Assembly: GCA_001443495.1 (NCBI GenBank)
Contig: LDXR01000011.1
Location: forward strand, 43,840-107,839
Length of the DNA: 64,000 nt
DNA from: a candidate division NC10 bacterium CSP1-5
GTDB lineage: Bacteria; Methylomirabilota; Methylomirabilia; Methylomirabilales; CSP1-5
Direction of reading: 5' to 3'
Shown here: positions 3,011 through 46,147 of the stretch, in pieces
Position numbering within the stretch: the first letter of the stretch is position 1
Layout of the letters: each line of letters begins with the position of its first letter
Notes under the pieces: generated by a model
What the model saw: only the letters and a program-made list of their open reading frames with translations
Told to the model about the DNA's origin: nothing
Databases searched by the model: none
Position numbers and translations under genes: made by a program

Positions 3011-3018
3011 TGAGTTCC

Positions 3019-9173: not shown

Positions 9174-9182
9174 CGAGGCACG

Positions 9183-11622: not shown

Positions 11623-11661
11623 CGTCTTCTAAACGTTTCGCGGCGAAACGTTTAGAAGACG
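11623..11661. repeat. 39-bp perfect palindrome containing GTTTCGCGGCGAAAC, copy 2
   Basis: The arms are perfectly complementary over 19 bases around a single central G at 11642. The core (11635-11649) is the dispersed palindrome. It sits in a gap between two leftward genes. There is no T-run on either side, so it is not an ordinary terminator; a protein-binding site or cruciform is more likely. Confidence 0.9.
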
Positions 11662-14922: not shown

Positions 14923-17325
14923 CTACTGGCAGATGCAATCAGCGAACCAGGACTTCTTGGTGCGCCGGGTGACCTTGACGGTCACCTTCAGCCCATTCTC
15001 GGGCGACGGGTGATCCGAAGCAAAGACGGCAATCGCGCCCGGGTAGTTGATGTCGGGCATATGGGGTAGGCCCGAGTTACCGTCCACCAAGCACTTGCGG
15101 ATGACGGTCCGGCCGGACTGTGAGTCCTTGCGTTTGAACTCCCGAACGGTGCCCTGGATGACCGTCTCCTCGGTCACTTCGGGCAGGCCGAGGATGACAC
15201 CAGACACCAACTTGGAGAGGCCGGGCTTATCCCGGAGAATATCCAGTACTTCTTCCGGGAAGGCCATGAACACAGACGACGCCCCGGCGTATTTGCTCCG
15301 CATGTCATGGGCCGCGCGCCAGATAGCAGCGCAGGCTAGGGTGTCATCCAGGCCCATCTCGTTCTTCCAGGTGGCGACCTTCTCGGCCCACCACTGGCTG
15401 AAGCGGACGACATCCTGGGGCCACTCCCAGTTGACGCGCTGGGACTCGGCTACGAACATCTTCTGGAGACCGATCGCGGGCCCCAGAACACTGTCCGGCA
15501 CAACCAGGGCCCATCTCTGGAAGTCATGCAGCGGCCGCACAGCCAGGGTATGGCTCAGCATCGCGCTGAGGGCGAGCAGGGTCAGCCTCATGATCTGGAC
15601 GATGGTCCCGTCGTACCAGGAATTGGTAGGAACGGCATTCTTCCGAACAGGATCGTCGCTCTTCAGGTGACCCATCTCGTCCTCGTTCCAGAAGGACGGG
15701 ACGCCGTGCGTGAAGGCCCAGTCGTTGGGCCAGCTCACCCACGGCGGCAGCGTACCGAGCACATTGACCAGCTTGCTCTGGAACCGAGAGAGATCTTGCA
15801 TGAGCTGCTTGGTGTCGACAGACACCTTGAAGAGATCCGTGCCTGCTTTCACCCAGTAATTCAGGGCGTTATCCAGGGCAGCCTCACTCGCATAGCCCAG
15901 GCGGTGGGCCATCTCTTCCCGGTTGGCCGTGACAAACGTCGCAGCCATGAGGTTGACTGCCATGCCGACCACATTCAGCATGGATTTCTCAGCCAACTCA
16001 CCCCGGATGTCCTCGTCCTCCAGCTTCGTGTGAGTCTTGATGAGCTTGGGCGTGGGCTGGAGCCCAAACCCGCTAACCGCCTCCCACAGGCGGGGCAACT
16101 CACTGCAATCGGCGATCAACGCCAGATCGCCGTCGCAATCACCGCCCTGGTCGGCCCAGAACTTCGTATTCACACCGACCGCCTCGCCCTGGGCAAACCA
16201 CTGGGTCACCGAGACCACGATCTCCGCCTTGATGTCCACCAACTTCTTGTCACCCATCTTGATGTCCTTCGTGCACAACACGAAGTCGGCATCGAGGAGA
16301 TCATCGTCAACGATCCCGGCGCAGCCTTTAGCCGAGAAGGGATGGTCACCCATGGAGGTCATGCCATACTGAATGACCTCCATCTGGGCAATCCGCTCCA
16401 TCTCGGCAATCCGCTCCATCTCGGCTTCCACGGTGTTGAGCGTGTTGTTGTTCGCCCGGATGGAGTTCTTGGCATCGATCGGGTAGCGCGTGCTCAGTGT
16501 TTTCCCGTCCACAGCGATGTTGGGGACGTTCGCGGGCACAGTAACCTTCACCGCGTGATTCAGGGGGACCGTCGTGGCCGCCCGGGCCAGGATGTCTGAG
16601 GACACCCTCATGAGCATGTTCGCCACATACGGGTGCTCAGCCATCAACGGCTCGGCTTCGACCAGGTGGCGGCGACCCTGATCGCGGTCGCCTAACTGCC
16701 TCAACATCCACAACCCGGGGTCACCAGCCTCCACCAGGTTGTCACGCAGAAGCGGCTCCAGCTCTTCCTGGATCTCGGATGTCCAGGGAATGCGCTGCCA
16801 CCAGTGCGACGAGTCGCGCGCGGTGCCGAACTTGATCTTGTCGTGTCCGGCATTCATCTTCTCGGCCACCGAGCGTCTCACATACCCGAAGCCGTCCGCC
16901 ACCGGGCCGGCCAGGGTCTGAGTCCCTTCGGGCACGAACTTGATGTGCAGCTCACCCTTCCCGGCCCCATACAGGCCGTTGGCAAGGAACGCCCGACCGA
17001 ATCGGTGGGCGTCCTCACAGCAGTTCAGCAATCCCGTGTCCACCAGCAGGTCACGGGTCAGGCCCACAGTGTATCCGCGCTTGACGCTGCTGCCCCAGGC
17101 CCAGTCACCACGGTACTCGTTGCCGCCGTGGCGGATCGGCCGGCGCAACTCTTCAGCGGTGGGCGCCTTCGCGCCCTCGTACTTCCAGTTCACCATGACG
17201 ATCTTCTCGTCAGGGAACAGGGCGTCGATCGGGCTGTTAGAGAGAATCCTTTCCTCTCCGGTGGGTCGCCCGAAGCGGTCCACCACAACCACCTTACGGG
17301 TAGAGCGAAATGACGTGAACGACAT
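14923..17325 (-). CDS. Single-chain DxDGD RNA polymerase-like protein
   Basis: 800 residues. The signature is GGDCDGDLALI, with Asp396, Asp398 and Asp400 matching the metal-binding DxDGD of cellular beta-prime subunits and of one-chain two-barrel polymerases (YonO, QDE-1, crAss-like gp66). Upstream elements also fit the RdRP/YonO pattern: ADGFGYVRRSVAEK near residue 148, STRYPIDAKNSIR near 282 and AKGCAGIVDDD near 333. No sigma-like or zinc domain is seen. A small in-frame duplication repeats MERIA-E/Q around residues 310-325. A good ribosome site (AAAGGAGAA) precedes the ATG. It likely transcribes later phage genes. The family call rests on motifs only. Confidence 0.7.
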   Translation of the reverse strand: MSFTSFRSTRKVVVVDRFGRPTGEERILSNSPIDALFPDEKIVMVNWKYEGAKAPTAEELRRPIRHGGNEYRGDWAWGSSVKRGYTVGLTRDLLVDTGLLNCCEDAHRFGRAFLANGLYGAGKGELHIKFVPEGTQTLAGPVADGFGYVRRSVAEKMNAGHDKIKFGTARDSSHWWQRIPWTSEIQEELEPLLRDNLVEAGDPGLWMLRQLGDRDQGRRHLVEAEPLMAEHPYVANMLMRVSSDILARAATTVPLNHAVKVTVPANVPNIAVDGKTLSTRYPIDAKNSIRANNNTLNTVEAEMERIAEMERIAQMEVIQYGMTSMGDHPFSAKGCAGIVDDDLLDADFVLCTKDIKMGDKKLVDIKAEIVVSVTQWFAQGEAVGVNTKFWADQGGDCDGDLALIADCSELPRLWEAVSGFGLQPTPKLIKTHTKLEDEDIRGELAEKSMLNVVGMAVNLMAATFVTANREEMAHRLGYASEAALDNALNYWVKAGTDLFKVSVDTKQLMQDLSRFQSKLVNVLGTLPPWVSWPNDWAFTHGVPSFWNEDEMGHLKSDDPVRKNAVPTNSWYDGTIVQIMRLTLLALSAMLSHTLAVRPLHDFQRWALVVPDSVLGPAIGLQKMFVAESQRVNWEWPQDVVRFSQWWAEKVATWKNEMGLDDTLACAAIWRAAHDMRSKYAGASSVFMAFPEEVLDILRDKPGLSKLVSGVILGLPEVTEETVIQGTVREFKRKDSQSGRTVIRKCLVDGNSGLPHMPDINYPGAIAVFASDHPSPENGLKVTVKVTRRTKKSWFADCICQ

Positions 17326-20861: not shown

Positions 20862-21046
20862 GTGACGGATTTCGGGACAAGCTGACGGTGTTGCTGAACG
20901 AGAACAGCATGGAGAATCGGTCGGACACGCCGGACTTCATCCTGGCGCAGTTTCTAATTAGCTGTCTGGACGCCTTTGATGAGGCGGTCTCCAGACGCAC
21001 GGAATGGTGGGGCAAGACTCCACCTGTAGGGAAGGGGGATGGATGA
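20858..21046 (+). CDS. Small hypothetical protein
   Basis: 62 residues, helical (DFILAQFLISCLDAFDEAV). Coupled by ATGA on both sides, directly upstream of the large terminase. Many phages carry a similarly placed small helical protein of unknown function. Confidence 0.65.
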   Translation: MSDGFRDKLTVLLNENSMENRSDTPDFILAQFLISCLDAFDEAVSRRTEWWGKTPPVGKGDG

Positions 21047-22902
21047 GGGCGGACGAGAGGGCGTTATCGAGGTGGATGAAGCGATTTGAGTCGCTGGCGG
21101 AGCCGTCAGACATGCGGGTATTGAAGGAGGCACGCGACGGTGACCTGAATGTGCTGACGAACTACTACATGCGCTTGCCAGGCGGGGGGACTCGCTGGCG
21201 GGCGGAAGGGGGTGAGACTGGCCATTACCGGTCTCTTTTTGAGTACGGTCAGTTGCACGAGATGTGGGTACAGGCGGGCCGGCCGGAGCAGGAGATGAAA
21301 CTGGAGGTCGAGGGGTTTGGCCTCATGCGTATTGAGACGCGCTGGACAGAGCTGGCTGAGCCAGACTTCTTGTATCCGCATGGGTATCTCTTTTTGCCGT
21401 GGGTGATACAGAATGGGTTGATCGATCCGAGTGTGGCGGTCGTGCTGGCCATCACGGGGACCGGGACGAGCAAGACGAGTGCGGTAGCCGTGGCGGGCCT
21501 GGGGTGCTGTGCGTTGTATCCGGGCTTCCGGTTCCTGAACGTGGCGCCCACCGAGAATCAGGCCGTATTGATGGTGGAAGAGTTGACAAAGTGGTGCACC
21601 GATACGCCCTTCACGAAATTTGTAGAGATGACTCGTGGGGGCGAGTTGTTTGTCTCAAAGCCACACCCGACCGTGGTGATTCGGAGTCCCTTTGGGCCGC
21701 AATATGAGAGCCGGTTTGTGTGTCAAACGATTGGGCGAGATGGCACAGCGCAGAACATTACCGGGAAGAATGTGGATTGGCTGAATGTGGACGAGGTGCA
21801 GTACCTCATGGGTATTGTGGCCGCTTTGGGAACACTCATGACCCGTTCGCGCGGACAACGGGCGAATGGTGAGGATATGTGGTCGAAACTGACCATGCTG
21901 ACGAACCCACCCGAAGACGGGATGTTGAATCCTGAGTTGGAAGTGCTCAAAGGACGCATCAGGACGCTGGCCGAGAAGAACGATCCTTTGGTGAAGGCAC
22001 GCTACGTGGAGGGGATTCACCGAGACGCGAACGTCTACATCACCGATCGGCAGAAGGCATTTCATGGGGCCTTGCTATCTGAGGCCGAGCAGAGGCGTTG
22101 GTTGGGTGGGGATACGAACTCCTCGAGCCTGAATCGGCTATTGCCAGAAGTGCTTTTCAATCGGTGCCACGATGAAGAGATGGATAAGGACTTACTGGCC
22201 GAGCGGATCCCGTCTGAGAGTCGAGGGGAAATGGGCGTCATCCGGTATCGAGTGCCGCCAATTGCGCGACATAGCTACATTGTGGTGGGCGATCCGGGAA
22301 AGTCGTATCCGGCCCAGCTGAGTGACCAGAATGTGCCGACCGTATTGGCGCTTGATTTGACGACCTTCATGGTGAAACCAATCCCGTTAGTCTATTTTGG
22401 GATGCTGGATGGGGATGGGACTTACGATCCGTGGCTGAGCGCGTTCAAGCAGTGCATGGATGATTACGCAGCCATGGGCTATTACGACGCGACCAATCTG
22501 GGACTGACCGGGTTCGAGGACAGTGGTGTTTTCGCTAGCTATCAGACTGTGCCGGTCACGTTTGCCGGTAACAACAAAGCCTGGGCTCGGTCTCTATTTA
22601 CGCTCTTGGCGCAAGATAGTCATTTTGCCTGGCCGAAGCTGACCGCTCTTTGGTATCAAGGCGGCGTTTACCGGGAAAAGGGGCCGGGGCACGATAAGTT
22701 GTCCGATGACGTGATTGCCTCTTTGTTTGTATACTGCTTGGCGGTCAGGTACGAAGGGACTCTTTGGAGTAGGGTGGTCGATAAGTTCAGGATCAACGAA
22801 GATCTGAAACCCATGCCGGCCAGTGATGACGAAGAGATGGTGAGGCTGCCGAGAAGCTCCTATCGAGGAGCACGAACACAGACCCGGAGGGATCGGCGAT
22901 GA
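21043..22902 (+). CDS. terL: Terminase large subunit
   Basis: 619 residues from the ATGA at 21043. N-terminal ATPase with a slightly unusual Walker A, TGTGTSKT (about residues 137-144), and Walker B LNVDEV (about 247). The C-terminal RNase H-like nuclease has acidic residues in VVGDPGKS (about 414), YYDATN (about 480) and KLSDDV (about 551). It cuts and pumps DNA into the procapsid through the portal encoded next. Confidence 0.9.
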   Translation: MRADERALSRWMKRFESLAEPSDMRVLKEARDGDLNVLTNYYMRLPGGGTRWRAEGGETGHYRSLFEYGQLHEMWVQAGRPEQEMKLEVEGFGLMRIETRWTELAEPDFLYPHGYLFLPWVIQNGLIDPSVAVVLAITGTGTSKTSAVAVAGLGCCALYPGFRFLNVAPTENQAVLMVEELTKWCTDTPFTKFVEMTRGGELFVSKPHPTVVIRSPFGPQYESRFVCQTIGRDGTAQNITGKNVDWLNVDEVQYLMGIVAALGTLMTRSRGQRANGEDMWSKLTMLTNPPEDGMLNPELEVLKGRIRTLAEKNDPLVKARYVEGIHRDANVYITDRQKAFHGALLSEAEQRRWLGGDTNSSSLNRLLPEVLFNRCHDEEMDKDLLAERIPSESRGEMGVIRYRVPPIARHSYIVVGDPGKSYPAQLSDQNVPTVLALDLTTFMVKPIPLVYFGMLDGDGTYDPWLSAFKQCMDDYAAMGYYDATNLGLTGFEDSGVFASYQTVPVTFAGNNKAWARSLFTLLAQDSHFAWPKLTALWYQGGVYREKGPGHDKLSDDVIASLFVYCLAVRYEGTLWSRVVDKFRINEDLKPMPASDDEEMVRLPRSSYRGARTQTRRDRR

Positions 22903-23424: not shown

Positions 23425-25041
23425 TTGGCACGCTTTGGCCTGGTCAAGAATCCAGACGAAGAACTCTACAATTCAGACGAGTGGGCTGCCCGGCGAACCG
23501 CCTACGCGGATTATCTGTCGTGGTTTCGCGGGGACTCCATTCGTGATCCTGAGTCTAGTATCTCCGATCCGGCGACCGGAGATCGCCCCAAGCTCTATCC
23601 CCTTGCCCTGAACCCGATCGGGAAAGTGTGTCGCGTCCACCGTGACGTACTGATCGGGATTCAGCCTCACAATGTCCTCTCAAACCCTGTCCAGATCGTC
23701 GTGAAACCGGGCGGTGATAGTAGCACCTCACGAGCTGAGGCGACCTCTATTCAGGACCTCTTACGCTCCACTTGGGATGACTCAGAAGCGACTGCGCTCA
23801 TTCAGAGGGTGGGCTTGATGACCCAGGTGTTCGGCGGGTATGGCCTGCAAGTCCTGTGGCAACCCCAAGATACTGAGTTAGCGACCCGCCTGCGTATCTT
23901 CCCGGTCACACCAGGAACGCTGCTACCCGTTTACGACAAGGGCCAATGGTGGAACCTGCGGGAGTGCTACATTGGCTATCTGATCTCATCTGTGGATGCC
24001 GCACGCTACGGGGTCAAGGTTGATGAGAATGAAGATGCCCTCTACATGGAGCACTGGACGCCGGACAGCTATGTCATTCGGGTGAACGGCAAAGTGGCCC
24101 AAGTTGAAGGATACGGTATCCTGGAAGGGCCACACCCATTCAAGAGAGTGCCCATCGTCTATATCCCCCACATTCGAGACGATGGATTCTGGGGCAATAG
24201 TCACATTCCCGACCTGGTAGGATTGACGCGAGAGAAGAATTTCAGATCGGCTGACAAAGGGGATGCCGTCCGGGAAGTCACCCATCCGATCATGACTGTT
24301 GCCAATGTTGAGAAGGGTCTGAAGATGCAGCCCGTTCTCGATGAGCATGGCCGGGAAGTATCGACTGCTCTCAATTTGGGCGTGAAGAGAGCAGCTCCCA
24401 ACTCAGGCGATCCCAAGGCCGACTTCCTGCGCTATCCCGAAGTGCCAGCCAGTCTTGCCAATTACGATGCTGAGCTTTGGAACGAGATCCGCCGGCAGGC
24501 CGACATTGCAGCCGTCGCTCTGGGTGACGATGATGTGTCGGGCGGCCGGATCACGGGCCCGGTGACGGCTTACCGGATGTGGCCGACGATGGCGCACACA
24601 CAAGCTGAGCGCATCGACTTCTCGACCGCCATGCGGCACTTAAATCGCATCATCTTGGCCGGCCTGATGGGCTATGGAAATGCATTGACCCAGGCCGGCG
24701 TTACTTTGCCAGTCAACCTCTCGGAAGACCATCTTCGCCTCAATCAACTATTGATCTGGAATCCTCAAATCCCCCTGGAAGTAAGCGAACGAGCCGACAT
24801 GCTCAATAACCGCCTCACGAAGGGCGGTATCAGTCTCCTGAGCTACCTGACCGAGATTGGCGTCCACGATCCCGAAGCAGAGCAGGACCGCATCCGGGCC
24901 GACATGGAATTTGAGAACGAGCTTGAGATCAAACGGGCTACGGCGATCGCGGAATCGAAGCCGGCTCCCTTCGGGGGTGGCCAGCCGTCCGGGAATGGGC
25001 AGAACGCGCCCGTACCTGTTCCTGCAGGAGTACCCAAATGA
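23425..25041 (+). CDS. Portal protein
   Basis: 538 residues from a TTG start (GAGG upstream; the frame is closed by TAG before any ATG or GTG). Position directly after terL, length, the central RVPIVYIPHIRD ... GLTREKNFRSADKGD helical part and a C-terminal low-complexity tail all fit an SPP1-gp6-like portal, the dodecameric ring at the capsid vertex. No single diagnostic motif. Confidence 0.8.
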   Translation: MARFGLVKNPDEELYNSDEWAARRTAYADYLSWFRGDSIRDPESSISDPATGDRPKLYPLALNPIGKVCRVHRDVLIGIQPHNVLSNPVQIVVKPGGDSSTSRAEATSIQDLLRSTWDDSEATALIQRVGLMTQVFGGYGLQVLWQPQDTELATRLRIFPVTPGTLLPVYDKGQWWNLRECYIGYLISSVDAARYGVKVDENEDALYMEHWTPDSYVIRVNGKVAQVEGYGILEGPHPFKRVPIVYIPHIRDDGFWGNSHIPDLVGLTREKNFRSADKGDAVREVTHPIMTVANVEKGLKMQPVLDEHGREVSTALNLGVKRAAPNSGDPKADFLRYPEVPASLANYDAELWNEIRRQADIAAVALGDDDVSGGRITGPVTAYRMWPTMAHTQAERIDFSTAMRHLNRIILAGLMGYGNALTQAGVTLPVNLSEDHLRLNQLLIWNPQIPLEVSERADMLNNRLTKGGISLLSYLTEIGVHDPEAEQDRIRADMEFENELEIKRATAIAESKPAPFGGGQPSGNGQNAPVPVPAGVPK

Positions 25042-27673: not shown

Positions 27674-27676
27674 CCC

Positions 27677-27904
27677 ATGTTTCCCGATCTGTTATTTCCA
27701 GCCAGTTATTTTCCGAATGGCTATTTTCCACCGGGCAGTGAGTTCAACGAGACAGTTTTCTTGACCCTGGACGACATGCCGACACTAACCCTAGCCAGTC
27801 TGACCTTTTCTTTGACTCTACTTAGTCTTCCTGGCCTGACCCTGGAAAATGTTCCCGTGCTCACTCTGGAAGAAGAGCCGGGCGGACCAGGAGAGGAACA
27901 CTAA
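27677..27904 (+). CDS. Small YFP-motif structural protein
   Basis: 75 residues. LFPASYFPNGYFPPG near the start is a motif I have seen in small proteins of phage head regions. The rest is leucine/threonine-rich. Function unknown. Confidence 0.65.
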   Translation: MFPDLLFPASYFPNGYFPPGSEFNETVFLTLDDMPTLTLASLTFSLTLLSLPGLTLENVPVLTLEEEPGGPGEEH

Positions 27905-28236
27905 TGGCCACCGCCATCATCGACTATCGAAAGGTTGTCGAAGACAAACGGGTACATGGCGTCGAGGCCAAGGTGGCCTATGCCATCACCATCCCAGCCT
28001 CCTGGGGTCTTGAGGACCCCACCTCATTTGTCGCAAAAGTCTACGATGTGACGGGTGGCGGATTCAAAGATGTGACGACGGCCAGCACGCAGGGGAGTGG
28101 GAGTGCCGTAGGACGATTACTCACGACTCCTCTCGTCAAGAGCCTGGCACACAACAAGGACTATCGTATTTATTGGATTTTCAACATGGACGGTAACACC
28201 TTATCCGCCTGGTACGAGGTGAGAGGAAAGAGGTGA
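27904..28236 (+). CDS. Structural protein, hypothetical
   Basis: 110 residues, beta-rich, with a central DPTSFVAKVYDV and an aromatic C-terminal YRIYWIFNMDG. Start overlaps the previous stop (TAATG). Similar small beta proteins are virion components in other phages. Confidence 0.65.
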   Translation: MATAIIDYRKVVEDKRVHGVEAKVAYAITIPASWGLEDPTSFVAKVYDVTGGGFKDVTTASTQGSGSAVGRLLTTPLVKSLAHNKDYRIYWIFNMDGNTLSAWYEVRGKR

Positions 28237-29522: not shown

Positions 29523-29782
29523 GGTACGACTACGAGTGTCAGGCGTGTCAGGACGTGTTCGAGGTACAGAGGATGATGGAGGATTCTTCGCCGGTCGTTT
29601 GCAAGTGTGGCTCGACGAAAACCATTCGCGTCATCACTCGCACTCCGTTGATTCACGTCGCCTGGCGAAACACGCTTGGCTTAGGCCATAGTGGGCAAAT
29701 TGTGATGTCTGCTGTGGATAATCGATCCGTTTCGCGGCGAAACGGAAGGAGGCGAATGCATGAAAACCCGATTTCAAGCTAA
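29519..29782 (+). CDS. FmdB-like zinc-ribbon protein
   Basis: 87 residues from a GTG overlapping the previous stop. MRYDYECQACQDVFEVQR followed by VCKCG is the FmdB-type zinc ribbon, common in phages with unclear function. The C-terminal segment is encoded across the dispersed palindrome, where it reads SVSRRNG. Confidence 0.75.
   Translation: MRYDYECQACQDVFEVQRMMEDSSPVVCKCGSTKTIRVITRTPLIHVAWRNTLGLGHSGQIVMSAVDNRSVSRRNGRRRMHENPISS
29726..29746. repeat. Dispersed palindrome, copy 3 (21-bp extended)
   Basis: The 15-bp core lies at 29729-29743 and symmetry extends to 21 bp. It sits inside the FmdB-like gene, just upstream of the AAGGAGG ribosome site of the next gene. Confidence 0.9.
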
Positions 29783-34454: not shown

Positions 34455-35801
34455 ATGGGACAAATTCACATCGCAGCAGCATCCCAGTTCGGTCTTGCCA
34501 TTCAGAGGGACCACAACCTCATGAGTGCGACACCCGCCTGGCGAAAGTTTCCCTTTACCGCAGCGCCGTTCGGCCCCACACAGCCTTCCCGGAACCTACC
34601 CCTAGAAGCGGGCTCGGACATCACGCCACGCGGTATGTACAAGACCGGTGTCTGGGGAGCCGGCCAACTCGCCTTCCTGCCTCGTCTCCAGGATGACATC
34701 GGTCATATACTCCTGGCGGCCATGGGCAAGGATACTGTCACAGACAACTTCGCCTTCAACATCGACGGCGGCGGCGCCGACTCAGCCGAGACCGGCTCGT
34801 ACATCCACACCTTCACCCACGACTCGGCCCAGACCAACTACACGCCGTATATGTCTGTGCGGCGCTTCCTGGAAGGGGTGACGGCCACGGGCGTAGATGC
34901 TCTGGGCGAGCAGATGCAGGACGCTCGTATCGGCAGCCTAGAGCTCAACCTGCCGTCGATGGGCGTGCTCTCGGCCACCATGGACTTGATGGCACGCTCG
35001 CCGGAAGACGAAGACCTGTTCGTCCCGAAACGCTACACGGCGGCCACGATCTCTGTGAGTGCCACAGACGACAGCTTCAACGACTCGGCATCCGGTTTCC
35101 AGCGCTTCGAGCCGGGCGACTCCATCGTCACGTCGGGCTTCACGGAAGCGGGTAACAATGGCACGTTCACCGTCGTCACGGCGACGACGGCCAAGATCAC
35201 GGTGGCCGAGGCCCTGACAACCGAGATCGCCGGCGCTGGCCATAGTGTGAACATCAACTGGCTCACCGATGCTTACGACTCCGACGATGCGTTTTCAATC
35301 GCAGCCGATCCGAAGTCGCAGGTCATCATTGAGGGCGAGCAGTTGCAGTGTTCGGGTCTGACGGTGACCATCACGAACTCTCTGCTGCCGGTCGAGCAGG
35401 CCATGATCATCGGGGAGTACAGTCCTCTAGACTTCCCGAACATCACACGCCAGATCACGTTCCGGGCGACAGCCCTGATCAGCAACTACGATCTATATCG
35501 GGCTCTGATCACCAACTCGACGACCGGGAAGCGATTCTCGGCCTCTCCCTTCACGGGAGACGTGGACTTCCGGGCTTACAGTCCCCTGACTTACCTATCG
35601 GGCGCACGGCAGTTCGCCCTGAATGTTCGCACCACCCAGGGGAATGTGTCCTGGGCGTTGCAGGGTGCTCTGCCGTTCACGGCTGGACAGCCAGTGATCA
35701 TCACTCTTCTCGGCACCGTCCAGAAGCCGGTGAGCCCCCCTTACGCCGAGGTGCGCTTCCAGAATACCGTCAGCGCAGCGTATGCCATACCGACCAGCTA
35801 A
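34455..35801 (+). CDS. Major tail tube protein with Ig-like insertion
   Basis: 448 residues. The outer parts form a tail-tube-like beta protein. A central module (about residues 193-270: KRYTAATISVSATDDSFNDSA ... GDSIVTSGFT ... NNGTFTVV) is related to that in the protein at 29760, so the same surface domain decorates head and tail. Position before the chaperones and tape measure supports the call. Confidence 0.78.
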   Translation: MGQIHIAAASQFGLAIQRDHNLMSATPAWRKFPFTAAPFGPTQPSRNLPLEAGSDITPRGMYKTGVWGAGQLAFLPRLQDDIGHILLAAMGKDTVTDNFAFNIDGGGADSAETGSYIHTFTHDSAQTNYTPYMSVRRFLEGVTATGVDALGEQMQDARIGSLELNLPSMGVLSATMDLMARSPEDEDLFVPKRYTAATISVSATDDSFNDSASGFQRFEPGDSIVTSGFTEAGNNGTFTVVTATTAKITVAEALTTEIAGAGHSVNINWLTDAYDSDDAFSIAADPKSQVIIEGEQLQCSGLTVTITNSLLPVEQAMIIGEYSPLDFPNITRQITFRATALISNYDLYRALITNSTTGKRFSASPFTGDVDFRAYSPLTYLSGARQFALNVRTTQGNVSWALQGALPFTAGQPVIITLLGTVQKPVSPPYAEVRFQNTVSAAYAIPTS

Positions 35802-35808
35802 TCGAGCC

Positions 35809-35834
35809 GGGTAGGGGGAGCAATCCCCCTACCC
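35809..35834 (+). other. Perfect 11-bp hairpin with GCAA tetraloop
   Basis: GGGTAGGGGGA pairs with TCCCCCTACCC around a GNRA loop, between the tail-tube stop and the next ribosome site. No T-run follows, so it more likely stabilises the 3' end of the abundant structural mRNA than terminates it. Confidence 0.7.
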
Positions 35835-35847
35835 ACCAGGAGATACC

Positions 35848-36324
35848 ATGGATCTCGCACTCTATCCGACCATCAGTGAGCCGATCAAATTGGCCGACAT
35901 CTCGCCAGCTTTCAAGTCCCTGGAAGACCAACAGTTGGACGGCCTTCCTGACGAGGAACGGGACGCCAAACGGGTGTGGGTCGTTGTCCGGCAGGCGACC
36001 GAAGAAGATCAGATCCGGAGAACGGATTTGCAGTCGAAACGAGAGGTACGATACACCGGGGCCGACGAAAGCGGATTGGCCGTGTCTGAAGTGATTGATG
36101 ATAACTGGCGTGAGCGGATCCAGCACGAAGCCTACTGGACTCTGCAAGACGTGGGCAACCTGGAACGCAACGGAAAGCCGGTCTTCCCCAAGATGCCGGC
36201 CAACATCATGAAGTGGGAGGAGTTCACCTCGATATGGGGCAAGCTCCACCCGTTGGTTGCCCAGACCATCCATCGGGCGGTTCGTCAGTTCAATCCAGAC
36301 TGGGACTGGCAGCAAGCAAAATGA
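35848..36324 (+). CDS. Tail assembly chaperone, first ORF
   Basis: 158 residues, after GGAGATACC. Between tail tube and tape measure, as for lambda gpG. The stop overlaps an ATGATG that begins the second ORF in the -1 frame. No classical slippery heptamer is seen at the overlap, so restart coupling is as likely as frameshifting. Confidence 0.65.
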   Translation: MDLALYPTISEPIKLADISPAFKSLEDQQLDGLPDEERDAKRVWVVVRQATEEDQIRRTDLQSKREVRYTGADESGLAVSEVIDDNWRERIQHEAYWTLQDVGNLERNGKPVFPKMPANIMKWEEFTSIWGKLHPLVAQTIHRAVRQFNPDWDWQQAK

Positions 36325-36683
36325 TGAGCGCCCACTATCGCCAGATTCAGGAGGCGGTAGCGGGTGCACTCAAGTACGAGTATTACCAAGCCGAACGCCT
36401 CAAGTTCGGCAACACCTTCTCCATGGTGCCTGAGTCAGCCCTCTTCCCGGAGGGAGTTCAGAAGATGCCAGAGGTCTACTGGCTCTATCGCAAGTGCCGA
36501 ACCTGGAACAGCCTGTGGTGGCCAGGTGGTGTTGCCTCACAGCCACACATCCTGATGAACGAGTTCGAGGCGTGCGCCTCGGGCGAGTCCGACTTCCGAG
36601 AGTGGATGGATCAAGTCCTGGAGCAGAAGTTCCAACAAGGGAACGGCAAGAATGATCTTCAAAACCTCTTCAACCGGACCTAG
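36321..36683 (+). CDS. Tail assembly chaperone, second ORF
   Basis: About 120 residues starting at ATGATG. Helical, with WLYRKCRTWNSLWWPGG. Position equals lambda gpT, the partner chaperone that holds the tape measure. Function inferred from synteny. Confidence 0.6.
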   Translation: MMSAHYRQIQEAVAGALKYEYYQAERLKFGNTFSMVPESALFPEGVQKMPEVYWLYRKCRTWNSLWWPGGVASQPHILMNEFEACASGESDFREWMDQVLEQKFQQGNGKNDLQNLFNRT

Positions 36684-36685
36684 CG

Positions 36686-39600
36686 ATGCCTCCTCCTGAT
36701 CGTCCCGAAGTCAGACCGAGCGCGGCCGCTTATTCCGCTAAAGGCTGGCCCTACCTCTCCAGCGATCCCAAGCAGGGTTTCTGGTCATCTGAAGACATCA
36801 AGCACGGTGAAGAGTTCGATCAGTTTGTCTCAGACACACTGATCCCCTTCGTAAAAGCCCATCCTGAGACTCTTTCCGGGACGGGCGTTGCGCGTATCTC
36901 CACTCAGATCAAGGGGCTGACCGGCAGAGCTTACGATATTCCCTATAAGGGACGGCCTGACGTCGTGCTCTGGAACGGTGGCGATAAGATCATCAACGTC
37001 TCAGACGTTAAGGTCTCCACGCCCACCGAGAAGGTCCACTTCCAGCCTGAGAAATACACCGGCACCCCGAAGGAAGAGGGCTATTTTCTCCAGCCCCAAA
37101 TGTATGCCCACGCACTCCGAGAAAGCCTTGCCCCAGGAGCAAAGGCCAGCCTGTTCTTTGCTCCCAAGACCATTGCGACAGACATCATCGTCGCTTGGCA
37201 CGGCCTGAACGAAGAGAACCGGGTTGAGTACGCCCGCCAGATCATGAGGCGTATGACGGGTCAGAACGTCGAGGAAATCCCTCATCTTTCCTCGGAGCTA
37301 GTACCGGTTAAGAACATCACCTATTCTGAGCGGCCTGTGGCCGAGGCCAAAGAGTTTCAGCCCGGCGGCACTCTCTATACCCCCATCCGTGCCGCCTCTG
37401 ATGAGGCAGGTCTCATTGAGAAGTGGACTGGATTTCACCCCCATCGACTGAGTGAGTTCGAGAGAGGCACTGGCGAACCCGGCTCGCCTGTCATCCCGTT
37501 TGCTTGGCGGCGAGATATGCGGGCGCTGTACGAGATCGCCGGCATGCTGGCGAAGGGCGCCCGGAAGGGAGACTTCTCGGAAGAAGAGGCTATCAAAGAG
37601 CTTCAATCTCATATGCAAGAGATCGGGGTCAGTAGCTTTGATCCGACCCGTCTCCCGCAGAGGGCTGCCGAAAAGCCAACCGAGCCAGTTGCCGAAACAT
37701 CCCCTCTGGGCTTTGCACGTGTGGCCTACGGCCGCGTCAAAGAGATTCTGGGAGCCAAGTCCATTCTCACCCAGGGCGGCCGCTTCATTCTGCCCGACAT
37801 TGCCTCCGAGAAGGAAACGGGGGAGATGCCGGTCGTCCAGGAAGGGCGATTGGGTGAGTTCCGTGGCCAGCCGACGATCGATGATGTGCTTGTCACGCCC
37901 GTCCAGTTTGAAGCCGGCATGAGGCCCGTCCAGCCCGAGATCTTCTCGGAGTTGATGCACGTGTGGCGTAAATCCATTGGAGAGGGGATGACTCCCCGGG
38001 CGGCCATGCGTCTCGTGAACGAGAGACGCCGCAAGCTCATGGAAGGGATGCCCAGAGTCGGGCCTGTCTTTGGCGAGACGTCGACCGCGGCCGGAGAAGC
38101 CCTGAACCAGTTGGCTGTGAAGATCAACCAAGTAGGTCAGGAACGCGAGTCTGGCGACCCGATGACCGTCCAGAGATGGTACGAGAAGTCGGGCGGCCTG
38201 GTGGCACGTGGACGTGATCCAAGCTTGGGCTATGACATTGAGCAACTCAACAAGGCTCTTCCCGGCCATGTTTCTACGCCGGGAAGAATCAGAGCGGGTC
38301 TTCTGCTGGAGCAGATTGCCAAGATCCGCAAACGGGTGTCGATGGCTGCACGCCGGGACTACATGCTCTCGGCGGCCCCTGAAACGGGTCGGAACATCAT
38401 CTCCCCGTTCCGCATGGAAGGAGCTCCTCGTTCTGAGCGAGGCATCCACTTCAATGTGGGGTACACCCCGAACTTGCCAGAAGGCATGATGTTGATGGAC
38501 GCCGCAACCATGCGGCAGATGGATGCCCAGGGCGGCTTTGTCCTTCCCCACCAGGAAGACATCCCTCTTCCTTCGGGTGTGGACTTTACACCGGACGAGG
38601 AAGCCTATCGCCGGCAGACCGGTGGCTCAATCCCCCTGGGGCGGCTGGGGCACGCCCGGGAGATAGCGTTCAAGGCCAAGCAGTTCATGCAGTTTGCAGT
38701 CAATCGCGCCTTCCAGCATTATGAGAGTGGCGAGTCCATGCTGCGGGTGGAGGGCGTGGGGAAGGTTAGCGGTGAGCAGGAGTTGATCAAGTCCTGGCTC
38801 GGAAACAAAGCGGTTGGCATGGCCTACGAGGACTTGAATAAACGGGTTGAGGGGGGTGCCCTGAACATTGAAGCGCTGATGCCAGTTGCACAAGCGCCTC
38901 GTCAGGAACTTTTCTCGCTGGTGAGTGACTATTACGCTACCAAGAAACGCGGCTTTGAGCTGTTAACTAAAACGCTTCAGTCGATGGGTCTTGACCCTTA
39001 CAAAGAAGGATTGGTCGAGGACTATGATCCCGAAGAACGGGAGTGGGCCCGGAAGAGCAAGGCGGCCATCACCGGCAAACGCCTGATCTGGGGCGAAAAA
39101 CTAGACCCCTACATCATCCAAATCGGACGAGCCATTCAGCAGCAGATGGTGAAGCAGAACGTCCGCATGAGTATCCCGGTCAGCTACGAGGAGGCCGAAA
39201 CCTACGCCCGTGTTCATGGGCGGGAGTCGTTGGGCCAGATCGACTGGGATGACTGGCGGCAGAATCGGAACGAGCGTCGGGAAGTCACCTTCCAGGGGGC
39301 GATGCCGGTCGGCGGCCGCATGTTCCAGATGGAGAAACTCTGGACGGGCCGGGCTCAGGCCACGCTCGGTGAGTTGCAGGCCATGCCGCCTCGTATGGCC
39401 GAAAGGGCACTCCGGGAAGGAGGGCACCAGCGCCAGTATTACGAGAGTCTGCTGAAATCGGCTACTGCCTCACGGGACCCAACCACTCGCGAGGACATGA
39501 ATGTCGTCAGCCTAGCAGACCTCCGAGAAGAGATCGCCAAGCTACCATCTGAGCTCTCGTTTGTTGAGAAGATGGCTCAGGTTACGCCAGGCCGGTATGT

Positions 39601-42600
39601 TGACATTGGGGGCGGAGTGATCACTCCGCCATTGCCGCAGATGTCGATCATGAGCGTTCCGAGTGAAGTCACGGGAATGGTCAACCCCATTCCCGGCACC
39701 GAGAAGGACGTGTTCCCCCAAGAGGAACATAACGCGATCATCCACTATTACGAGACGCTCGTCAAAGCCCGGGCCGGCTCAAATGAAGAGGCGCGTGCCT
39801 TCGGCCAGGTACGTGATCGGATGAATCGACTGATGGGCACAAAGGCCGTGGCGAAAGGGTTGGTCTCCTCAGATGTGACAGGTCGCATGGGGACAGAAGG
39901 GACGTATGCCTTCATTCCCGGCGCCCGTCCTATGGAAGTCATCGTTGGTGAAAAAGCGTTGCGGGAACTGACCGGTATGCCTTCAGGGGATATGAGCCAG
40001 GAGGCACTGGATCGGTACGTTGAGACAGGTATGACCGCCTTGGGCCAGAGGCGACCAGACGTGCTACAAGGCGTAACGTCCATGCCGGGCTTCCGGATCG
40101 TGACGACCGCCGAGGCGGGCCGCTTGGGAATCCCCGTTCCTCGGAACTTCCAGGGGATGGCTTTCTCCCAGATGATCGCCAACCGCTTCCAAGGGGACGC
40201 AGATGGGGACCAGGTGGCTCTCTTCCTGGCCACCGTGTTCAAGATTGGCAAGTCCATCACCACGCCGGGCGAGGCCGCCAGGAGATCCACAGAGGAAGAG
40301 TTCCTGGAACGGCAGTTCCGGTTCCTGGAGCTGGTGACCGGTGAGCAGGTACACGGTCAGCGCACTTGGGAGAACTACTTGACGGTTGAGGATGATCTGG
40401 TCAGACGAACCGGCATGAAGGCATCCGAACTCGCCAAGTGGATGCAGAATGTCGGCAAGGCGCCCAAGACGGCCGATGAGTTCTTTGGTAGCCTGGAGCA
40501 GATGAACGCCTCGGTCACCACCAAGGACGCTCGTCAGGCATACCTCGTCGAGCAGATTGCCCAGAAGCAGCGGGGCGATGTGTTCAACCCGTTTGTAAGG
40601 AACCTGTCCATCGCGATGAAGTCGATGGGTATGAACACCCAGAGCGAACAGGATACTCTGGCGCGTACCTCCTATTTCGCCTATCAAGCTTCTCTGGACG
40701 AGCCGGTCTCGTCCGGCATGAGAACCCTGATGGGCATCATGAACTCCTATTCGTTGAGGACGGGCGGGGAAGACGACCCGACCAGCCGAGGTCGGGTACG
40801 CGGCAAGATTCGGGAAACCCTCGATCCCACAATGGGCAAGCCGCCCGAGCGAGAAGTTGACTTCCAGGCCCTCCCCAAGGAGATCATCCGGGCTGTCCTG
40901 GAAGCCGAGGAGTTCCGTGGCTTTGCCGACCCCACTAAAGAACAGCTCAACAAAGCCTGGCATCGGGACGTGGCAACCCTCCTTTCGTCCAATCCTGAGA
41001 CGAGAACAGGAATTGCCAAGAGGCTTGAGGGGGTCACCCGTGACGACGTGACCGAAGAGCTGGTCAACGACCTAATTCAGGGGATGGGCGGTGAGCAGGG
41101 CTTCTGGAAAGAGGCAGGCCCTCTGACAGCCGTGATTGGCACTCGTATCACCAACCGGGGTGTTCAGAGTAAAGCGCCCTGGCTGCGTGGCATCATGCGA
41201 GATGTCATCAACAATCCACAGTACACCAACTTCCAGCAGACCGCTAAGGGACGGCAGCCGACCGGTGGATTCGGCTTCTTCGAGCGCCTAGCAACCCCGA
41301 TGCTAGCCGCCCAACGTCTGGAAAGCGGCAATATCGCGCCTTGGGTGACAGGCGAAAAGTCTGAGGACGAGGAAGAGAGAGCTCGTGGACTATTGTCCGA
41401 CCTGGCTTCCGCTGGCCTGCTTCCGACTTACGTGACTGAGACAGTCTCCCGTGGCCTGGAAGCGTTCCGCCAGAAATCCTGGGAGGCGATGCAGCGTATC
41501 CGTCTGGGAGTGGGAGTTCCAAGCCTCGATGAGTATGACAATCCAGGTTCTTCTGGGAACCTAGCCAACATAAACGACGAAGAACGCGAGCTACTAGAGG
41601 CGCGGCGGAAGATAGCCAAGGAGGAACGGGATCGGCTGGACGCGGCCATGAAGGCTCGTGTGTCTGGTGAGTTGAGCCCTGAAGAACTAGCAGCTCGTTT
41701 CGATCCGACTGCCCCAGCGCCAACTCCTCGTGCCCAGGGAGGCGGTGGACGCAAGCCACCCAGTAGAAGACCGCCTGTGATGGCAATACCACCTGAGCCT
41801 GAGACACCACCCGAGCCGAGGCTCACGCCCCAGACACCAGGTGGGGTTACCCCTGGAGAATCGGCTCGCGCAGCCGGCATCTTCCAGGAAGGAAGCGGGA
41901 TTGAGACGGCTGAATTTGTTGCTCGTCGGCGAGCACAAGCAAAAGCCGAACGGGAAGCCTCGACGACGACCGGCTACAAAGAGCCGGGCCAGGTTCCAGC
42001 CGACATTGCCGCACAGTCGATGGGTGATTTCGTCAAGCTCCTCACCGAGGAAGGGGGAGATGTTGGGAGAGCCATCGGTCGGGTTCTTATGTACCAGGGA
42101 CGTCCAAAGAATCTTGGTTATAAGTACGGGGGTGAGCGCTTTCAGGAGCAGTTGTCGATCATCAGACAGCGCATCAAAGAGGGACAGACTTTCGGCCAGG
42201 CCATGGCAGAAACATTCCCGCCTGGCACAACTGAAGGAGGAGAAAGATACGAAGGCGGTGTACTTGAGCAGATGTTCCAAGGCAAGATGACTCCGGCCGC
42301 GGCCGAGACGTTCCGCCGTCTCGAATCGGGCCGGGTGACCGAGAAGTTCATTGCAGAACGATTCGCGGAAATGAAGACACTCGGTGGTGGGGCAGTGGGG
42401 CCCGAGTCGACCGCCGAGAACTTCCGGCAGATTGCGGCCGCCGCGATCCAACAGAAGGAGACGAACAAGTATCTCAAAGATTTCGGAGAGACCCTTCAAA
42501 CGGCACGCCGACACACTGAGGATTTCGGGGATGTCCTGAAGCGCATCCAGCAGGGTAGGGAGGCTCCTGCTGAACGGAAATGGGCACAGGAGATGATGGC

Positions 42601-45600
42601 CGCGGCCGGCCCGCAGGGGGACATACAGGCCGCACGCAGCCTGCGGGGCCTCTTCCAGGAATTGGGATTCACGCCTGAGCAGAGAAGAGCGGTTGGACAA
42701 CAAATCGTCCAACTCCGGGAAGCGGGCGCCGAGGATCAAGACCCGCTATCCAGGGCCGCTCTCCAACGATCGGCGCGCAGCGCCATGGGTCGTATCTTTG
42801 GTGAGGGCGATGTCAGTCAGATCGCCTTTGCCGCCTGGAACCTGCAACGTGCCTGGCGTATGACAGGCGGCCAGATTACAGGGCGCATGGACGATTACGC
42901 CAAGTTCCTAGGTGGCCAACAGCAGGACGTTGCTATGATGGGCGGACCCGCTGGCTTCTTTGGGCCAGCCGGAACCGTCAGACGTGGGCAGGTTGCGGCT
43001 CAAAGGTTTGGTCTGTCGGTCGGTCGGGCTGGATGGGACATCATGGGACCCGTCATGGAGGCCACCTCGGGCGTTCTTGGAATGGAAGATCCTGATCAGC
43101 CCTCACTGGGCTCTTACGCCCTGGCCGCTGGTGGCTTAGGACTGGGTAGTCTTTTTGCTCTGGCCGGTGGCGGTCGCCTTGCAAGTATGGCGGGTCTTGG
43201 TGTTTTGGGTCGGCCCATGACGGGCCTGGCCGAGAATATCGCAGGTGGGGTGGTGGGTCGTGCAGGCGGCTTGGCACGTGGTGTGCGTGGACTTGGTGAG
43301 ACAGCGGCCCTGAGAGGAATGTATGCCCTGGAAGGACGTGCCCTGGGGCGATTGGCGCTACGGGGGGCTGGTGTAGGGGGTGGCCTTGTGGGAGGTGCCC
43401 TTGGCATAGGACTGCTGGGCGGCGAGCTCTTGGGAGAGGCTGGAGCAAACATTGGAGAGGCACAAGGAGGCGAGACGGGCGCTTCCATAGGGCGAGTTGC
43501 TGGGACGGGAGCCGGCATCCTGGGCACCCGTGCTCTTCTCGGCGCTCGTCTTGCCGGTGGAGGCGCTATTACAGGGCCTCTGACAGGTGGGATTGCGCTC
43601 GGTGGCGCCATCTACGATGAGACGATTGGCCGGCAACAGGGGATAACCGCTGGTCAGATCGTCAACCAGCTTCTCGGTGGAATCGACACGGGTGCACGTC
43701 TCCTGGTGGCAAGTCTCTCACAAAGCGCAGATGTCTGGAAGGATGCACAACGCACGGGCGCGATGTGGGCAGAACGGGCCGAAGGGTCGAGCCGAGAAGG
43801 GTCCAAGGCCACTCAGGAAGCTGCCGAGCAGATGAAGAAATTTGCCGACTACTCCCGGTTCGGCAAAGAACTTGAAGCCCGCATGGAAGCGATCCGGCAG
43901 CCGATGGAAGCGGGCACAGGTGTCAAGGTGGGCGCCTTGCTGGCTCAGGCAACTGGGATGGACTTGCAGACGATGATGCGGCCTGAGTCCATCAAGGCGA
44001 TGCAGCAATTGATGCTCTTGCCGCCTGAGCTCCAACAGCAGCGCATGGGGCTCGGCGTGGGCATGGCAAGAGCGGCCGGCATGGAATGGGGCGGGGCCGG
44101 CTTTGCTGGAACAATTCAGCAGGCGATTTCGCTCACCCCACAACAGCAACTCAGGGCCCAGTTCAATCTCGGCCAGATCAGTCCTATCGGCGGCTTAGCG
44201 CAGCAGTATGGCGTCCAACTGCCAGCCCTGACACCCGACCTGATCACCAACCTGTCTCCTGAGCAGAGAACCATGCTCACCCGGGTTGGATCGCTCGACC
44301 CGGTTGCCATCAGCCGGGAAGCGACCCGCCTTCAGGGGATGCAGCCGCAGTTGCAGCAGGCCCAGTTTGCCCAGAACCTTCGAGCCGAAGCAACCCGGAT
44401 GCAGGACATGACACTGGCGCAGCAGAACATTACTCAGGAGGCAAGAGAGCAGAGAGATAGGGATCGCTCTCTCATGCAGCAAGGGGCGAGCTTCCTCTTC
44501 CCGGAAACAGCCATCCGGGCCGCAGCGGTCGGTGGGCAAAGAGGCATCTTCGGGGCCGGGCAAGCCATCGCTGCCCAAATGGGACAGGTACAGCAGGTCA
44601 TCCAGAGAGCCATCCCGACTACGCAACCAGACTTCCGATCACTGATTCAGGTTGAGCCGGAAACGCTTCAGAGGGCCGGGACGACGGATGTCTCCATGTT
44701 CGCCCCGTCCGATTGGGCAATGGGCCAACGGCTGTACGGCCGGACGACAGCCCCTATCGACACGGGCATGAATCTGGTTCAGGCGCAATCACAGGCACGC
44801 ATGGCCGACCGCGCCTATCAGCAGTTCCAGTACCAGCAACAGTTGGCGCAACTGGGGCGGCAACAGGTCTACCAGCTGGGCGGTCAGATCGGCGGCTACG
44901 ACTTCACAGGCGGCTTCAACATTGAGCAGGCGCAACTTGGGGAAGGCGCCCGGGCGCAGAGACGCCAATTCCAGTTGCAGGCCGGGACGATGAACTACGG
45001 CTGGCTGGGCCGGGGCGCCGATGCCTTCCAGGGGATGGGCGGTGAGTATGCTGACCTGGAACGCATGGGAGCCGCTGGCCTGGGCTATCGGCAGTTCTAC
45101 GAGAATTTGGAGCAGCAGAGGAGAGTATCCGGCATACAGCGGGGCCGCACCGAAGAGGACGTTCAACGGCAGTACCAGCGGCAGATGACTGGGTTGGGCT
45201 GGCAGGAGCAGGATCTGACGGTGAATTTCGAGCGCAGCATGACGCGCTTCACCCAGAGCTTGCAAGACCTGACGACCAACTTCCAACGTGGACAGACTCA
45301 ATTTGGATGGCAGCGTGAGAACCTGGCCTTCCAGGGGTCGCAGCAAGCTCTCTCCTTCGGCTGGCAGATGGAGGACATTGACACGGCCATGCGCTACGCC
45401 ACGGGCCGGGAAAGAAGGCAGTTGTCCCGACAGCGGGAACGCGGCGTCGTTGGATATGGGATGCAGGTTGAGCAGTTGGGCCGGGAAGGGGAACGCTTAG
45501 AAGAACGACAGCAGTGGGCCCAAGAAGATTTCAACCGGGAACGCAACCGGCTCGAAGAACGTCGGGGCTGGGCCGAAGAGGACTTCGGCAAAGAGAAGGA

Positions 45601-46147
45601 TCGTATCGACACACGCCGGGAATGGGCTGAAGAGGATCTGGCGCGTGCCTTGGAACGATTGCTTGAGCAGGGCAAGCTGGACGAAGAGCAGTTCGGCTTA
45701 CGCGCCAAGCAGTTTGAGGAAGACCAGAAGATGGCGAAACTTCGCCATGACGAATCGGTCAAGCACTTTAGCATCACCAATGGCCTGCAGGTCAAAGCCT
45801 TCGAGGACCGGAAGAAGCAGTTCGAGATTGAGAGTGCAGCCCAGGCCGTCTCGCTGATCAAGACCATGCTGCACACAGCGGAAGTCATTCGCCTTCAGGA
45901 TCAGATAGGCGTCCTGACCTCGGCCATGAGCTATCGGTTCGATCGTTTCTCAGAAGACATCAAGGACCCGAACGGGAAGCTGGCAAACTCACTGAACGCG
46001 ATCGTGCTAGACATCAGTGGGGCGCTGGGCAGCGCCCACCAGCCCTACTTCAAGGGACACGATACTGTTTTCCGTGCCTTCGAGCGATTGACTGAGGCGG
46101 TCGTCGCAAATGTAAATCGGGCTGTTCAGGAGTTGACGAGTGGCTAG
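36686..46147 (+). CDS. Giant tape-measure protein with fused nuclease and RNA polymerase-like domains
   Basis: 3153 residues. (1) Residues ~60-170 form a PD-(D/E)XK nuclease: KGRPDVVLW, VSDVKVS and QPQMYAHAL. (2) Residues ~480-1600 are RNA polymerase-like, with KSWLGNKAV (Lys702, Lys708) like the beta-subunit GNKG block and RFQGDADGDQVALFL (Asp1171, 1173, 1175) like the beta-prime DFDGD loop. (3) A Pro-rich linker at ~1675-1725. (4) A tape-measure half with a long Gly/Ala hydrophobic stretch (~2090-2325), Gln-rich helices and a terminal Arg/Glu coiled coil (~2920-3065). Location between chaperones and tail-tip genes fixes the tape-measure role. Co-ejection of the enzymes with the DNA is inferred. 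The start has only a weak ribosome site. Confidence 0.8.
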   Translation: MPPPDRPEVRPSAAAYSAKGWPYLSSDPKQGFWSSEDIKHGEEFDQFVSDTLIPFVKAHPETLSGTGVARISTQIKGLTGRAYDIPYKGRPDVVLWNGGDKIINVSDVKVSTPTEKVHFQPEKYTGTPKEEGYFLQPQMYAHALRESLAPGAKASLFFAPKTIATDIIVAWHGLNEENRVEYARQIMRRMTGQNVEEIPHLSSELVPVKNITYSERPVAEAKEFQPGGTLYTPIRAASDEAGLIEKWTGFHPHRLSEFERGTGEPGSPVIPFAWRRDMRALYEIAGMLAKGARKGDFSEEEAIKELQSHMQEIGVSSFDPTRLPQRAAEKPTEPVAETSPLGFARVAYGRVKEILGAKSILTQGGRFILPDIASEKETGEMPVVQEGRLGEFRGQPTIDDVLVTPVQFEAGMRPVQPEIFSELMHVWRKSIGEGMTPRAAMRLVNERRRKLMEGMPRVGPVFGETSTAAGEALNQLAVKINQVGQERESGDPMTVQRWYEKSGGLVARGRDPSLGYDIEQLNKALPGHVSTPGRIRAGLLLEQIAKIRKRVSMAARRDYMLSAAPETGRNIISPFRMEGAPRSERGIHFNVGYTPNLPEGMMLMDAATMRQMDAQGGFVLPHQEDIPLPSGVDFTPDEEAYRRQTGGSIPLGRLGHAREIAFKAKQFMQFAVNRAFQHYESGESMLRVEGVGKVSGEQELIKSWLGNKAVGMAYEDLNKRVEGGALNIEALMPVAQAPRQELFSLVSDYYATKKRGFELLTKTLQSMGLDPYKEGLVEDYDPEEREWARKSKAAITGKRLIWGEKLDPYIIQIGRAIQQQMVKQNVRMSIPVSYEEAETYARVHGRESLGQIDWDDWRQNRNERREVTFQGAMPVGGRMFQMEKLWTGRAQATLGELQAMPPRMAERALREGGHQRQYYESLLKSATASRDPTTREDMNVVSLADLREEIAKLPSELSFVEKMAQVTPGRYVDIGGGVITPPLPQMSIMSVPSEVTGMVNPIPGTEKDVFPQEEHNAIIHYYETLVKARAGSNEEARAFGQVRDRMNRLMGTKAVAKGLVSSDVTGRMGTEGTYAFIPGARPMEVIVGEKALRELTGMPSGDMSQEALDRYVETGMTALGQRRPDVLQGVTSMPGFRIVTTAEAGRLGIPVPRNFQGMAFSQMIANRFQGDADGDQVALFLATVFKIGKSITTPGEAARRSTEEEFLERQFRFLELVTGEQVHGQRTWENYLTVEDDLVRRTGMKASELAKWMQNVGKAPKTADEFFGSLEQMNASVTTKDARQAYLVEQIAQKQRGDVFNPFVRNLSIAMKSMGMNTQSEQDTLARTSYFAYQASLDEPVSSGMRTLMGIMNSYSLRTGGEDDPTSRGRVRGKIRETLDPTMGKPPEREVDFQALPKEIIRAVLEAEEFRGFADPTKEQLNKAWHRDVATLLSSNPETRTGIAKRLEGVTRDDVTEELVNDLIQGMGGEQGFWKEAGPLTAVIGTRITNRGVQSKAPWLRGIMRDVINNPQYTNFQQTAKGRQPTGGFGFFERLATPMLAAQRLESGNIAPWVTGEKSEDEEERARGLLSDLASAGLLPTYVTETVSRGLEAFRQKSWEAMQRIRLGVGVPSLDEYDNPGSSGNLANINDEERELLEARRKIAKEERDRLDAAMKARVSGELSPEELAARFDPTAPAPTPRAQGGGGRKPPSRRPPVMAIPPEPETPPEPRLTPQTPGGVTPGESARAAGIFQEGSGIETAEFVARRRAQAKAEREASTTTGYKEPGQVPADIAAQSMGDFVKLLTEEGGDVGRAIGRVLMYQGRPKNLGYKYGGERFQEQLSIIRQRIKEGQTFGQAMAETFPPGTTEGGERYEGGVLEQMFQGKMTPAAAETFRRLESGRVTEKFIAERFAEMKTLGGGAVGPESTAENFRQIAAAAIQQKETNKYLKDFGETLQTARRHTEDFGDVLKRIQQGREAPAERKWAQEMMAAAGPQGDIQAARSLRGLFQELGFTPEQRRAVGQQIVQLREAGAEDQDPLSRAALQRSARSAMGRIFGEGDVSQIAFAAWNLQRAWRMTGGQITGRMDDYAKFLGGQQQDVAMMGGPAGFFGPAGTVRRGQVAAQRFGLSVGRAGWDIMGPVMEATSGVLGMEDPDQPSLGSYALAAGGLGLGSLFALAGGGRLASMAGLGVLGRPMTGLAENIAGGVVGRAGGLARGVRGLGETAALRGMYALEGRALGRLALRGAGVGGGLVGGALGIGLLGGELLGEAGANIGEAQGGETGASIGRVAGTGAGILGTRALLGARLAGGGAITGPLTGGIALGGAIYDETIGRQQGITAGQIVNQLLGGIDTGARLLVASLSQSADVWKDAQRTGAMWAERAEGSSREGSKATQEAAEQMKKFADYSRFGKELEARMEAIRQPMEAGTGVKVGALLAQATGMDLQTMMRPESIKAMQQLMLLPPELQQQRMGLGVGMARAAGMEWGGAGFAGTIQQAISLTPQQQLRAQFNLGQISPIGGLAQQYGVQLPALTPDLITNLSPEQRTMLTRVGSLDPVAISREATRLQGMQPQLQQAQFAQNLRAEATRMQDMTLAQQNITQEAREQRDRDRSLMQQGASFLFPETAIRAAAVGGQRGIFGAGQAIAAQMGQVQQVIQRAIPTTQPDFRSLIQVEPETLQRAGTTDVSMFAPSDWAMGQRLYGRTTAPIDTGMNLVQAQSQARMADRAYQQFQYQQQLAQLGRQQVYQLGGQIGGYDFTGGFNIEQAQLGEGARAQRRQFQLQAGTMNYGWLGRGADAFQGMGGEYADLERMGAAGLGYRQFYENLEQQRRVSGIQRGRTEEDVQRQYQRQMTGLGWQEQDLTVNFERSMTRFTQSLQDLTTNFQRGQTQFGWQRENLAFQGSQQALSFGWQMEDIDTAMRYATGRERRQLSRQRERGVVGYGMQVEQLGREGERLEERQQWAQEDFNRERNRLEERRGWAEEDFGKEKDRIDTRREWAEEDLARALERLLEQGKLDEEQFGLRAKQFEEDQKMAKLRHDESVKHFSITNGLQVKAFEDRKKQFEIESAAQAVSLIKTMLHTAEVIRLQDQIGVLTSAMSYRFDRFSEDIKDPNGKLANSLNAIVLDISGALGSAHQPYFKGHDTVFRAFERLTEAVVANVNRAVQELTSG

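Follow-up and report, generated by a model that had tools for sequence, protein, structure and literature searches.

A candidate tape-measure protein with nuclease-like motifs and a putative RNA polymerase site in a tailed phage genome

Genome layout around the locus

The window analysed in this study (64,000 nucleotides) is part of contig C11 (107,839 b), which belongs to a 2.77-Mb assembly of 40 contigs. The last 11,867 b of C11 are a repeat of its first 11,867 b. Thus, the element is circular or terminally redundant, with a length of 95,972 b. In addition, genes for the terminase large subunit and the portal were identified in the window by PHROG matches, and the C11 element is a tailed phage. 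The phage is linked to this assembly, and thereby to any putative host, by contig binning only.

A simple ORF chooser gave approximate gene directions, leftward from about 20.5 kb and rightward from 20.6 to 58.8 kb. In the rightward block, terminase and portal stand with further head genes; then come a 448-aa protein, a pair of small overlapping frames, an ORF of 3153 aa, and genes for fibre-like proteins. Terminase, portal, and the fibre-like proteins were named by profile, and the rest were named by position. The main genes are as follows.

14923..17325, minus strand: orphan protein of 800 aa, DCDGD at 396-400 within GGDCDGDLALI, candidate for a non-virion RNA polymerase
21004..22902, plus strand: terminase large subunit (PHROG phrog_2), late, tailed-phage module (21004..25041)
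23425..25041, plus strand: portal (PHROG phrog_64), same module
34455..36683, plus strand: genes preceding the tape measure, a 448-aa tail tube candidate and a 158-aa frame with an overlapping ~120-aa frame (tail-assembly-chaperone candidates)
36686..46147, plus strand: whole ORF of the putative tape-measure fusion protein, 3153 aa in a single frame

Several other genes of the phage were noted by eye. A sensor-histidine-kinase-like protein of 309 aa (window 56240-57169), with an HEFRTP box and an ATPase-like C terminus, lies amid the late phage genes. On the minus strand, a 1370-aa protein that spans the window start (C11 42803-46915) resembles a methyltransferase fused to an SNF2-type helicase, and a 654-aa protein (C11 31171-33135) resembles an ATPase of the HerA/FtsK type whose N terminus is lipobox-like. 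The latter, together with a ParB-like protein encoded at C11 ~27123-28064, raises the question of a phage-plasmid. Furthermore, all seven copies of the near-palindrome GTTTCGCGGCGAAAC that the 2.77-Mb assembly contains lie on the circular phage genome. These copies may be parS-like sites, since the ParB-like protein is encoded in the same genome. In a phmmer search, a 314-aa protein (window 3019-3963, minus strand) matched an ORF of Thermus phage P23-45 (33106-33478, gp60 region; E 6.9e-11).

GTTTCGCGGCGAAAC sites: window 1256-1270, 11635-11649, 29729-29743, and 61439-61453; C11 22523, 27216, and 37535

The 3153-residue ORF and its position among the tail genes

The ORF starts two bases past the stop of the preceding gene. 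The initial annotation had described one frame of 3153 residues, and we found this frame present and intact, with no internal stop. In an independent assembly, IMGVR_UViG_3300025164_000635, the ORF is identical over its full length (9462 bases), also with no internal stop. This IMG/VR contig (95,304 b) is near-identical to the phage genome; window 29686-50585, which includes the entire ORF, is identical, and small indels lie outside it. Roughly 550 b are missing from the contig relative to window 9083-9652, and about 50 b are extra relative to window 25759-25834.

Furthermore, codon-position GC is of coding type in every 300-codon block of the ORF, end to end, and the number of cysteines in the 3153 residues is zero. 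Several unrelated-looking parts share this one frame, as would be expected if an assembly or frame artefact had joined unrelated genes. However, the identity with the IMG/VR contig, the coding-type GC throughout, and the chain without cysteine anywhere make such an artefact exceedingly improbable, and it is refuted as far as sequence allows.

The ORF can be divided into the following parts.

36740..37330, plus strand: PD-(D/E)XK (RecB/Cas4-like) nuclease-like domain, residues ~19-215
38306..41365, plus strand: candidate RNA polymerase region, residues ~541-1560, limits guessed by analogy with gp96 of phage P23-45
38801..38815, plus strand: GNKAV (706-710), proposed earlier as the second barrel, unsupported (beta-subunit HMM without match)
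40160..40234, plus strand: candidate DPBB-A active-site block, residues 1159-1183, AFSQMIANRFQGDADGDQVALFLAT
40196..40210, plus strand: DADGD, putative metal-binding D1171, D1173, and D1175
41636..46147, plus strand: tape-measure half, residues ~1651-3153, on the basis of composition

By gene order, with neighbours mostly named by position, the ORF is the longest tail gene and lies after the tail tube and chaperone candidates and before the distal tail genes. Thus, it is in the place of the tape measure. The tail tube and chaperone candidates were named from position and overlap only, and a family search with the genes at 34455..36683 gave no match. The composition of the tape-measure half changes from a Pro/Ala-rich linker to a Gly/Ala-rich stretch (2101-2400) and then to a Gln/Arg-rich part that runs on to the C terminus. 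Membrane-spanning segments are common in tape measures and not strictly defining. In the 3153-aa protein, no 19-residue window had a mean hydropathy above 1.6, and there was only the Gly/Ala-rich stretch. The ORF is best read as encoding the tape measure of a phage with a long tail.

Nuclease-like and polymerase-like regions of the N-terminal half

The motifs named in the initial annotation are all in the protein: PDVV at 91-94, DVK at 107-109, QPQ at 136-138, GNKAV at 706-710, and DADGD at 1171-1175. Nevertheless, Pfam, PHROGs, and PDB sequence searches with the 3153-aa protein gave no convincing match, and neither the polymerase region nor the nuclease region was confidently recognized by any profile library. 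We count the latter result against the fusion reading.

For the nuclease region, direct reading of residues 19-215 showed a helix with HGEEF, GRPDVV (D92), SDVKV (D107, K109), and QPQMYAHAL. The motifs PD, (D/E)xK, and Q therefore stand in the order claimed for a PD-(D/E)XK nuclease, but the fold is unconfirmed. The best profile match, exonuclease phrog_298, was weak although in register (E 0.3). The AF2 model of this region was too low in confidence to use (pLDDT 35.8), and a Foldseek search with it gave no match at E <= 0.001. In addition, a weak Aeromonas phage match to the region was dropped, as it runs against the annotated strand.

For the polymerase region, the initial annotation had regarded the fusion of tape measure and polymerase as having no known described example. 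This was wrong, for in the hot-spring phage P23-45 the tape measure gp96 bears at its N terminus a two-barrel polymerase, with activity and crystal structures on record (Chaban et al. 2024, PMC10770324). The minimal active fragment of gp96 is 327-1124. In P23-45, gp96 transcribes the genes that come first; one of these is gp64, whose product, the non-virion polymerase, goes on to transcribe further genes (PMC10770324). We placed the candidate region at residues ~541-1560, guided by where DADGD lies and by the extent of the gp96 fragment. Its first aspartate is residue 1171 of 3153, within the ORF at the tape-measure position.

The 25-aa DADGD block scored 17.4 bits against a beta-prime PSSM, and 200 shuffles of the 3153-aa protein reached at most 11.2. 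With the same PSSM, the proven P23-45 polymerases reached 10.4 (gp96) and 0.5 bits (gp64). The block was also in register with beta-prime by hhalign (P 0.0027). When the core motif was omitted from the scoring, just two non-polymerases outscored the flanks of the block, in a set of about 112 sequences sharing the core. Next to these results stands a profile comparison of 103 sequences with beta-prime, in which this protein ranked 43rd, gp96 45th, and gp64 58th. The control consisted mostly of proteins from public contigs sharing the [FY]xGDxDGDQ core, and decoys with this core matched beta-prime as well or better, which we count against a polymerase. Since decoys match equally, the motif can neither prove nor exclude one.

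The initial annotation had proposed signatures of both barrels. The DADGD block stands above the shuffles, but GNKAV is unsupported: a beta-subunit HMM gave no match anywhere in the 3153-aa protein. The same HMM also missed gp96 and gp64, so this test is weak. Other blocks that resembled beta-prime by eye were rejected, with PSSM scores at noise level. The AF2 single-sequence model of residues 541-1560 had a pLDDT of 37.1, too low to read a fold, and a mixed alignment with beta-prime for fold prediction was rejected as circular.

Relatives of the 3153-aa protein were sought by tblastn in phage and plasmid records and with peptide and DNA patterns in viral contigs, which returned only the identical IMG/VR contig; none was found in genome contigs or in 95 genomes of the phylum. 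No divergent relatives turned up in which the three aspartates might be compared, and this also counts against the fusion reading.

Among the called genes of the phage genome, only the 3153-aa ORF and the 800-aa orphan contain DxDGD. The orphan is encoded a few kilobases to the left of the divergent junction, and in profile alignments with beta-prime, gp96, and gp64 its DCDGD fell in register. Like gp64 of P23-45, it is near the divergent junction, among leftward genes. A repeated-word scan for a promoter motif ahead of the pre-early genes gave no clear promoter series.

These observations bear on two alternatives. The protein could be a tape measure with a nuclease-like domain and without a polymerase, in which DADGD is a chance or calcium-binding-like motif of a long orphan protein. 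The unlocated second barrel and the equal beta-prime matches of the decoys would fit this explanation, as would the [FY]xGDxDGDQ matches in genome contigs, where a few true beta-prime genes were found among mostly non-polymerases (repeat, calcium-binding-like, or unrelated proteins). However, the DADGD block exceeds all shuffles, a second DxDGD orphan lies by the divergent junction where P23-45 has gp64, and P23-45 provides a proven case of such an active fusion. We consider this explanation unlikely. Alternatively, a two-barrel domain might be present in a degenerate or repurposed form, such as a DNA-binding or structural tail module. A single visible barrel signature in an extremely divergent region agrees with this, but the three motif aspartates are all intact, and the proven gp96 and gp64 are about equally hard to detect. 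We consider such a form quite improbable.

Proposed role and comparison with known systems

The ORF probably encodes a divergent virion polymerase fused to the tape measure, with an added nuclease. The fusion proposed in the initial annotation is best read as a tape measure bearing a DxDGD active site and, at its N terminus, the motifs of a RecB-like nuclease, although only one barrel is supported, by a single motif and its setting in the genome. In its favour we count the intact ORF in two assemblies, the DADGD block that scores above shuffles, gp96, and gp64, the P23-45-like gene plan, and the precedent of P23-45. Against it we count the second barrel that was not located, the AF2 models without a usable fold, and the undetectable kinship with gp96 and gp64.

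According to this fusion model, the N-terminal half would be an enzymatic payload: first a nuclease-like domain of PD-(D/E)XK type, then a very divergent RNA polymerase with two barrels in a single chain and DADGD as its active site. The chain would lie in the tail lumen and set the tail length, as in P23-45. At infection, we infer that it would move into the host envelope, and the enzymes would be injected with the DNA. The tape-measure polymerase would then start transcribing the first genes to enter, which would include the second, non-virion polymerase on the opposite strand (14923-17325). The two proteins may thereby divide the labour as in P23-45.

It is quite possible, and we put it forward tentatively, that the fusion of a nuclease and a virion polymerase to the tape measure took place in an independent lineage, one that has no detectable sequence relation to phages of Thermus and that carries a second polymerase as well. 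If so, transcription borne by the tape measure would be a strategy of long-tailed phages in general, having arisen or diverged more than once, and the fusion would be no peculiarity of Thermus phages but would also occur in an unrelated environmental phage. In addition, the nuclease would enter the cell alongside the polymerase, which would widen the range of tail-delivered proteins, and a second test system would be available for the coupling of transcription to genome entry.

The N-terminal domain shares with RecB/Cas4-like PD-(D/E)XK nucleases the order of helix, GRPDVV, DVK, and QxxxYA, but differs from them in having no confirmed fold and no profile match above the weak one described. For the polymerase site, the FxxDxDGDQ active-site strand of cellular beta-prime and of large-phage fused beta-beta-prime (L023, L024, L026, and L028) is the closest sequence match, whereas the remaining blocks of beta-prime, like the GNKGV block of beta, do not rise above noise here.

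Some crAss-like phages have PDDEXK domains in large transcription proteins (Yutin et al., PMC7886860). Their virion RNA polymerase (phi14:2 gp66 and relatives, PMC7886860) belongs to a giant protein, is injected, and has two barrels in a single chain, as proposed here. However, it is not described as fused to a long-tail tape measure, and its likeness to the 3153-aa protein is by description.

The nearest parallel in layout is P23-45. In both phages, leftward genes include a DxDGD protein by the divergent junction, and rightward genes encode terminase, portal, head, tail, and tape measure. Both giant tape measures are free of cysteine (0 in 3153 residues here and 0 in 5002 in gp96) and have DxDGD in the N-terminal part. 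However, sequence similarity to gp96 and gp64 is undetectable, and hhalign to gp96 was out of register (P 0.19-0.37). The longer gp96 (5002 aa) contains a metallopeptidase and a membrane region. Unlike the 3153-aa protein, its N terminus has no PD-(D/E)XK motif set by our reading, and a nuclease is unmentioned in the gp96 paper (PMC10770324). What sets the 3153-aa protein apart from gp96 is the additional PD-(D/E)XK-like domain at its front.
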